64,000 nucleotides of DNA, taken from assembly GCF_000591035.1 (NCBI RefSeq), contig NC_022521.1, forward strand, positions 372,001-436,000, written 5' to 3'. The position numbers were made by a program, and so were the translations under genes. This stretch comes from Aeropyrum camini SY1 = JCM 12091 (GTDB taxonomy: Archaea; Thermoproteota; Thermoprotei_A; Sulfolobales; Acidilobaceae). Below, one piece after another: positions 2,453 to 41,108 of this stretch. Positions within the stretch are counted from its first letter, which is position 1; each line of letters begins with the position of its first letter. The notes under the pieces are model-generated. The model was not told the DNA's origin, ran no database searches, and worked only from the letters and a program-made list of their open reading frames with translations.

Positions 2453-3622
2453 CTACCACTTCGCCCTCCCCATTAAACTGTCCACATCCACCCTAGACCT
2501 CCCCACCTCCAGAACAGCTATATCCCCCTCAGCCCTTGTGTACACGCTCACCCACGGCTCCCTGTACGAGGCCCTTGTAACCACGCCAACATAGGTCCCG
2601 CTGCCCGTGTGCACGGCGGCTATGAGCCCCTTCTCCCAGCCCTCCCTCAGAACCCGCAGACCCGGGCTGGCGCCGGGCCTCCCTCCCCTCCTAGCCACGA
2701 CCACTATATCCCCGTCAACCTTCTCCCCGTAGATGGCGGTGGGGTGTAGAGTTCTAAGTGTGTCGGGCGGGAGGGGCTCGCCCCTGAATATGGGGGCTCC
2801 AACTATCTCGGCCTCCCCAGGCCTGACTCGCCTCTCCCTACCGCCCGAGGTCCTCAGGGCGATGAGCCTCTCCCTATGGAGCGCCCTCTCACCCCGGGTT
2901 TTACCTCCCTGGCTGGCCAGCCTCTCCACCGCCACCGCGTCTAGCCCCCAAACTCTCTCGAGCAGCCTGGCGCTCCGGGGTGGTAGGCCTACCGCCAGGA
3001 CTAGCTTGGCTCTAGATGCTATGGCCAGGGCCGCCTTTGACTCGAGCCCCTCCCAGAGGGATATCCAGCCGTCCGTGTCGATGACCACCTGGCCTGCCAT
3101 CGACGCCAGTCTCGAGGCACAGGCTAGGTAGCGGGACTCAACACCCCGGGGTGTGAAGCTCCCTACGAAGCAGGGTTCCACGCTCGAGAACGAGTCGTCT
3201 AGACCGGGGATGACTATGCTCCGCGGGGAAGCGAGGGCCACAAACCCGGGGGCGTAGACCTCGTTCTGGCCTATATCCGTCGAGAGCAGCCTGTAGCCCC
3301 CTCCACTCTTGTTAACTATCCAGGCGGCCAGCGTGCTCTTGCCCGAGTCGCTCGGCCCCACAATAGCAACGCGCCCCAGCGGCAGAGCTTCTCTGGCTAT
3401 AGAGTCGAACCTCTCGTACGAAGCATCAGCACCCGCTGTGGAGACGGCGCCGGAGAGTAGAGCCCTCCCCTCTACCCTGGCCAGCACCGCCCTACCCGCC
3501 GGGACCACCAGCCCAGACCCCTCATCCACTCTCCCCCCCAAAACCTCGGCGGCCCCTTCAACAACCTCTATCCTCCCCGGGCCCCGGATCAGCGCCGAGC
3601 CGCCGGCAACCTCCACAGGCAA
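2453..3622 (-). CDS. Polynucleotide 5'-hydroxyl kinase, Clp1/Grc3 family
   Basis: The 389-residue protein has a Walker A motif GPSDSGKST near residues 90-98, then YRLLSTDIGQNEVYAPG. This is the Clp1/Grc3 arrangement in which the P-loop is followed by a DxGQ strand and lid region. Flanking beta-rich segments match the N- and C-terminal domains of the family. Archaeal members phosphorylate RNA or DNA 5'-OH ends and may act on cleaved tRNA introns or exons; the split tRNA-Asp gene next door is suggestive but proves no link. The start is TTG at 3622; a GTG at 3616 is possible. GGTATAAAG lies only a few bases upstream, too close to drive a leaderless start, so the N terminus is uncertain. Confidence 0.82.
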   Translation of the reverse strand: MPVEVAGGSALIRGPGRIEVVEGAAEVLGGRVDEGSGLVVPAGRAVLARVEGRALLSGAVSTAGADASYERFDSIAREALPLGRVAIVGPSDSGKSTLAAWIVNKSGGGYRLLSTDIGQNEVYAPGFVALASPRSIVIPGLDDSFSSVEPCFVGSFTPRGVESRYLACASRLASMAGQVVIDTDGWISLWEGLESKAALAIASRAKLVLAVGLPPRSARLLERVWGLDAVAVERLASQGGKTRGERALHRERLIALRTSGGRERRVRPGEAEIVGAPIFRGEPLPPDTLRTLHPTAIYGEKVDGDIVVVARRGGRPGASPGLRVLREGWEKGLIAAVHTGSGTYVGVVTRASYREPWVSVYTRAEGDIAVLEVGRSRVDVDSLMGRAKW

Positions 3623-3623
3623 A

Positions 3624-3632
3624 GCTTTATAC
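3624..3632 (+). promoter_or_regulatory. TATA box for the 5' half of tRNA-Asp
   Basis: CTTTATACC, centred about 30 bp before the first base of the tRNA at 3659, fits the standard archaeal TATA-to-start spacing. Confidence 0.5.
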
Positions 3633-3658
3633 CCCCTGTGGTTAGATATGTGAAGCGG

Positions 3659-3698
3659 GCCGCGGTAGTATAGCCTGGACTAGTATGCGGGCCTGTCA
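3659..3698 (+). tRNA. tRNA-Asp(GUC), 5' half
   Basis: The acceptor strand GCCGCGG (3659-3665) is followed by TA, a D arm GTAT...GTAT, G26, CGGGC (27-31) and CTGTCA with anticodon GTC at 3695-3697. The half ends at A37 (3698). Next comes GGGCCCGCCTCCGCCCC, which pairs over 16 bp with GGGGCGGAGGCGGGCC just before the 3' half. The splice sites form a canonical bulge-helix-bulge: helix CUGU/GCGG, bulges CA|A and AG|A, and outer stem CGGGC/GCCCG. The two halves join precisely into a normal tRNA. Confidence 0.9.
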
Positions 3699-3816
3699 AG
3701 GGCCCGCCTCCGCCCCTCTTCCTCCGGCACGCGCCTTAGAGGATAAACGGGTGGGCAAACGTTTTTAACCCCGACGAAATTTATACTCTTCCCGGGGCGG
3801 AGGCGGGCCTGCGGAG
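3699..3816 (+). other. 118-bp segment between tRNA-Asp halves: very long intron or split-gene spacer
   Basis: The ends are complementary over 16 bp (about 3702-3717 with 3795-3810). The middle has a T-run (GTTTTTAACC, 3761-3770) that could end the first transcript or serve as TATA box for the second: its centre is about 26 bp before the start of the complementary leader at 3791-3795. A second TATA-like string, AATTTATACT, lies at 3778-3787. These signals favour two separately transcribed halves joined in trans. A single cis-spliced precursor cannot be excluded from sequence alone. Confidence 0.6.
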
Positions 3817-3854
3817 AGCCCGTGACCCGGGTTCAAATCCCGGCCGCGGCGCCA
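3817..3854 (+). tRNA. tRNA-Asp(GUC), 3' half with CCA
   Basis: It begins with A38, then the anticodon strand GCCCG (3818-3822) that pairs with CGGGC of the 5' half. The T arm is CCGGG-TTCAAAT-CCCGG, the acceptor strand CCGCGGC pairs with GCCGCGG, then discriminator G and encoded CCA (3852-3854). Confidence 0.9.
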
Positions 3855-40997: not shown

Positions 40998-41108
40998 TGG
41001 TGGGCCCGGGGGGATTTGAACCCCCGACCTACGGGTCTGGAGCCTCGGCCTCCCGCTAGTGGGGGCCTATGCGGGGTCCGCCGCTCTGCCTGGCTGAGCT
41101 ACGGGCCC
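40998..41108 (-). tRNA. tRNA-Trp(CCA) with a 34-bp intron at position 30/31
   Basis: The acceptor GGGCCCG pairs with CGGGCCC, with A and encoded CCA at the 3' end. The anticodon loop is CTCCAGA (anticodon CCA, 41038-41040) and the 3' anticodon strand is CCCGT. The matching 5' strand GCGGG is interrupted after its fourth base by 41044-41077. The junctions form a bulge-helix-bulge: helix CGGC/GCCG, bulges GG|A and AG|G. Removing 34 nt gives a normal cloverleaf. Confidence 0.9.

Follow-up and report, generated by a model that had tools for sequence, protein, structure and literature searches.

Features of the interrupted tRNA-Asp gene

The window analyzed here is a 64,000-nucleotide (nt) stretch of the Aeropyrum camini SY1 = JCM 12091 genome (contig NC_022521.1, positions 372,001 to 436,000), in which the gene for tRNA-Asp(GUC) lies in two halves. 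The 5' half, comprising tRNA positions 1 to 37, occupies 3659 to 3698 on the plus strand (40 nt) and ends with the anticodon GUC followed by A37. The 3' half, from position 38 through the encoded CCA, occupies 3817 to 3854, also on the plus strand (38 nt). Both follow each other on the same strand in their normal order, 118 nt apart, exactly as an initial annotation made from the DNA letters had described them. The gene is missed by ARAGORN and also by Rfam at the gathering score. The 5' half at 3659 to 3698 is the sole GUC-bearing half in the A. camini genome, and no second tRNA-Asp(GUC) was found there; the two contiguous look-alikes are tRNA-Glu genes (CUC/UUC).

The ends of the gap form complementary leaders. 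A 5' arm, GGGCCCGCCTCCGCCCC (3700 to 3716, plus strand), pairs with a 3' arm, GGGGCGGAGGCGGGCCT (3794 to 3810, plus strand), over 17 bp, 16 of them Watson-Crick and one G-U; the initial annotation had recognized this helix and made it 16 bp long. The segment 3811 to 3816 (plus strand) forms the intron side of a bulge-helix-bulge (BHB), with the 3' cut predicted from sequence after 3816, and the A. pernix gene has been drawn alike. The BHB claimed at 37/38 holds up, as an hBHBh' motif can be drawn exactly there, with a 5' bulge of C3697 to A3699, a 3' bulge of A3815 to A3817, and a central helix of 4 bp (3693 to 3696 with 3811 to 3814) that includes two G-U pairs, though the folding program favors an adjacent register.

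Each half is preceded by a promoter. We built a 16-position matrix from the upstream regions of 30 other A. camini tRNAs. The B recognition element (BRE)/TATA promoter of the 5' half, AAAGCTTTATACCCCC (3621 to 3636, plus strand), scores 17.5 bits, and an internal BRE/TATA promoter, AAACGTTTTTAACCCC (3757 to 3772, plus strand), scores 16.8 bits and has the same letters in A. pernix; in both cases a fraction of 2e-5 of window positions scores as high. The internal promoter sits 44 nt ahead of the 3' half, and within the 118-nt gap nothing else is comparable apart from a one-position shift of this site. The distance from the end of the upstream promoter to the 5' half is 22 nt, and that from the end of the internal promoter to the base where strong pairing of the 3' leader sets in is 21 nt, so that the predicted 3'-half transcript would start with the pairing arm, at the 5' end of 3794 to 3810. 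The initial annotation had listed a T-run between the halves as a separate feature, but that run, CGTTTTTAACC, is the TATA box itself. It had also proposed TATA-like boxes for a second transcript; the box at 3757 to 3772 stands, while the second, AAATTTATACTC at 3777 to 3785, was ruled out as a promoter, as it scores 1.4 bits and is not conserved in A. pernix.

Two half-transcripts or one precursor

The A. camini locus is orthologous to a split tRNA-Asp gene already published for Aeropyrum pernix, whose coordinates in our genome set (372080/372241) match exactly. The promoter and 3' leader are identical at 62 of 64 positions in the two species, against about 80% identity in the flanking DNA. 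In A. pernix, reverse transcription-PCR and northern blots established two half-transcripts, with the 199-nt precursor undetected on the blots; a reverse transcription-PCR product of precursor size exists, and read-through occurs but is minor (PMC3218864). The authors termed the gene a possible intermediate between an intron and a split gene (PMC3218864).

We consider it very probable that the A. camini locus is likewise a split tRNA gene, trans-spliced from two half-transcripts. This judgment covers the split mechanism alone; the origin of the interruption is graded apart. The two adjacent promoters would yield a 5'-half RNA and a 3'-half RNA, whose GC-rich leaders would pair in trans to form the BHB. 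The tRNA splicing endonuclease would then cut behind A37 and in front of A38, leaving the halves to be joined by a ligase. Read-through to one precursor could occur as a minor event, as in A. pernix. The locus combines a BHB junction with complementary leaders, a promoter for each part (judged from sequence only), and the absence of an intact copy.

The same locus could be read as an ordinary long intron spliced in cis, with an internal promoter that is fortuitous or drives something else. The halves are ordered on one strand only 118 nt apart and fold together as a single precursor, cis introns of 14 to 49 nt occupy the same position in other families, and the precursor-sized product of A. 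pernix fits as well. However, the northern blots show two half-RNAs and no precursor, and the internal promoter is about as strong as the gene's own, conserved above background, and recurrent in position at 10 of 10 interrupted loci. We therefore regard a long intron as highly improbable. An abundant precursor with no internal start would have pointed to it; the A. pernix RNA data amount in effect to that check, albeit in another species, and favor the split. Together with the conserved internal promoter, they support the intermediate between intron and split gene that the initial annotation envisaged. For A. camini, we infer the half-transcripts from conservation with A. pernix, and this indirectness counts against the trans-splicing reading.

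Interruptions at the same position in relatives

Comparison of the locus across relatives showed that A. pernix keeps the structure and that the break is more widespread. Ten genomes in three families have a tRNA-Asp gene interrupted at 37/38 by 118 to 567 nt. Eight of these are among the 48 genomes of family f1, where the interruption lies exactly at 37/38 (118 to 567 nt) and no intact tRNA-Asp copy was found in any of the eight. In all eight interruptions, the 5' arm contains CCTCCGC and the 3' arm contains GCGGAGG. In a tree of aEF-2, the eight genomes form four separate groups interleaved with intact ones. Congeners carry intact alleles at the same locus, and in one of them (G008) the neighbors match on both sides. 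Short cis introns of 14 to 49 nt are found at tRNA-Asp 37/38 in other families.

In each of the ten interrupted genes, the highest-scoring tRNA promoter match ends 44 to 57 nt ahead of the 3' half; all were scored with the matrix trained on A. camini, and the 40- to 60-nt window of the promoter test was picked after seeing the data, both of which weaken this result.

A LAGLIDADG-type ORF in three interruptions

Three of the ten interruptions, in three families, contain an open reading frame (ORF). The longest, 567 nt, is in an Acidilobaceae metagenome-assembled genome (G037, loci L014/L059, JALVZQ010000008.1) and encodes 155 amino acids with the motif AGLLMAEGGFG. The second, 448 nt, is in G067 (L060), a fragmented assembly with an estimated contamination of 7%, and has an intact ORF (FVAGLIVAEGSFG). 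The third, 451 nt, is in G116 (L061), where the ORF is frameshifted, through either decay or, possibly, an error in sequencing. The motif AGLIVAEGSFG was recorded for the LAGLIDADG-type ORF of these introns. The G067 and G116 interruptions each lie between tRNA exons of their own family type. The G067 frame can be read from an ATG within the 5' exon onward, and the frame of each of the three genomes terminates in the 3' exon.

A profile of the ORF matched canonical LAGLIDADG_3 proteins with a probability of 94 and an E value of 1.4e-7. Differences between the G037 and G067 ORFs fall 52, 30, and 81 at the three codon positions, a pattern as expected for a protein that would be under purifying selection. 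We found no close homologues of the ORF outside the tRNA-Asp 37/38 interruptions of G037, G067, and G116, and no relatives in phages and viral contigs. A distant relative is a LAGLIDADG-type ORF within a 23S rRNA gene (G509, L192, 1381 to 1995, minus strand).

The sister genome of G037, G038, has an empty site. The two differ at the site by exactly 567 nt, and their flanks share about 94.5% identity across 2.7 kb on the upstream side and 4.1 kb on the downstream side, a clean presence/absence between close relatives of the kind expected of a mobile intron. In all three ORF-bearing introns, the promoter match overlaps the IENF/IETF codons close to the end of the ORF; among synonymous permutations, it was matched by only 7 of 2,000 (G037) and 18 of 2,000 (G067). 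Since a promoter lies near the 3' half, we infer that the ORF-bearing genes may also be transcriptionally split.

Origin of the split

These features suggest a route by which the Aeropyrum gene may have been split. The interruption would derive from a mobile BHB intron with tRNA-Asp 37/38 as its specific site, carrying a LAGLIDADG endonuclease-like ORF and, near its 3' end, a promoter that starts a transcript at the 3' leader arm. If the element brings a promoter for the 3' half, a single insertion would be enough to split the gene at the level of transcription, and a compact split such as that of A. camini would remain once the ORF was lost. That the split derives from a mobile BHB intron bearing its own 3'-half promoter is, on the sequence comparisons, a proposal to which we give an even chance or slightly better. 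We judge as evenly balanced the stronger version, in which a homing tRNA intron inserts at 37/38, splits the gene at once, and has ORF-less descendants in Aeropyrum.

Several observations weigh against this origin. The ORF matched LAGLIDADG_3 with E values of 3.5e-4 and 7.5e-4 but fell just under the Pfam cutoff, and a low-confidence, uninformative single-sequence fold of the G037 ORF (predicted local distance difference test score, 63) retrieved no LAGLIDADG structure. No homologue of the ORF was found in the 118-nt gap or the whole genome of A. camini, and the compact splits, that of A. camini included, hold no convincing ORF remnant; the closest case, in G027, is a weak resemblance over 11 amino acids (1 of 200 shuffles, hidden Markov model E value of 0.28) that was spotted by eye before the test. 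Between compact and ORF-bearing interruptions, no significant nucleotide homology was detected beyond the shared arms.

The published origin model for A. pernix and Thermosphaera aggregans is that of recent splits through local rearrangement or viral integration. Under it, the splits would be independent and involve no homing, and the likeness of the leaders would be convergent or selected. Between genera, the interruptions have unrelated interiors, and in the T. aggregans group the halves are on opposite strands, as this model would have it. Independent splits would not, however, predict arms of CCTCCGC and GCGGAGG common to all eight interrupted genes, at the same position in four lineages; intact and interrupted alleles share a syntenic locus, so that rearrangement is unnecessary in Aeropyrum; and a precise ORF-bearing insertion is known at the site. 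We consider independent splits unlikely.

The interrupted gene might also have come first, with the endonuclease ORF a later invader of an existing intron and not the cause of the split. Two short introns of family f3, of 36 nt (G066, L089) and 49 nt (G062, L088), share their ends with the ORF-bearing G067 intron, and the compact splits without clear ORF remnants fit this order of events too. Against it, G037 has intron and ORF together while its closest sister has neither, and in all three ORF-bearing introns the promoter shares sequence with codons of the ORF itself. Late arrival of the ORF appears less likely than not, and derivation from a mobile intron remains our preferred reading.

By itself, the A. 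camini copy is another case of the published split tRNA-Asp; to our knowledge, the novelty lies in the ORF-bearing interruptions of its relatives, and the open-access literature searched yielded no description of an archaeal tRNA intron with a LAGLIDADG ORF. With an endonuclease-like gene at the same break in three families, mobile introns may be a source of split tRNA genes. A candidate, testable route from an intact to a split gene is offered by interruptions that carry an ORF at this very nucleotide, a sister genome whose site is empty, and a built-in promoter.

Neighboring features

The gene divergent from tRNA-Asp (2453 to 3622, minus strand) encodes a polynucleotide-kinase-like protein with a CLP1_P domain (Pfam E value of 5.1e-19) and served as a marker of the syntenic locus. 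It is divergent from tRNA-Asp in many relatives, whether the tRNA gene is intact or interrupted. Eukaryotic Clp1 has a role in tRNA splicing, so the neighborhood may be meaningful, or it may be chance. Elsewhere in the window, at 41001 to 41108 (minus strand), Rfam reports a tRNA with an insertion that was missed by ARAGORN.

Comparison with known systems

The split tRNA-Asp gene of A. pernix agrees with that of A. camini in locus, 37/38 junction, internal promoter, and 3' leader, and both halves match exactly; it differs in its gap of 121 nt versus 118 nt and in a diverged stretch from the 5' arm to the promoter. Complementary leaders, a BHB, and, very probably, trans-splicing are shared with the split tRNA-Asp of T. 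aggregans and the split tRNAs of Nanoarchaeum equitans. Unlike in A. camini, the Thermosphaera halves are on opposite strands and the Nanoarchaeum halves are far apart, and both have other leader sequences. Three genomes of the genus (G080 to G082; L090 to L092, L047, L055, and L056) show the convergent arrangement already published for T. aggregans, and in them a promoter-like AAAACTTTATAA motif precedes each 3' half. There we rejected the 3'-half leader GAAAACTTTATAAGC as an ORF remnant because its resemblance to the ORF end equals the tRNA promoter consensus, and a search of it with the ORF profile gave no hit. Archaeal rRNA introns that encode LAGLIDADG homing endonucleases resemble the tRNA-Asp introns in having a LAGLIDADG-type ORF and presence/absence at a conserved site. 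They differ in that their host gene is rRNA, whereas the tRNA-Asp introns add a promoter for the downstream exon and the A. camini copy is without an ORF.
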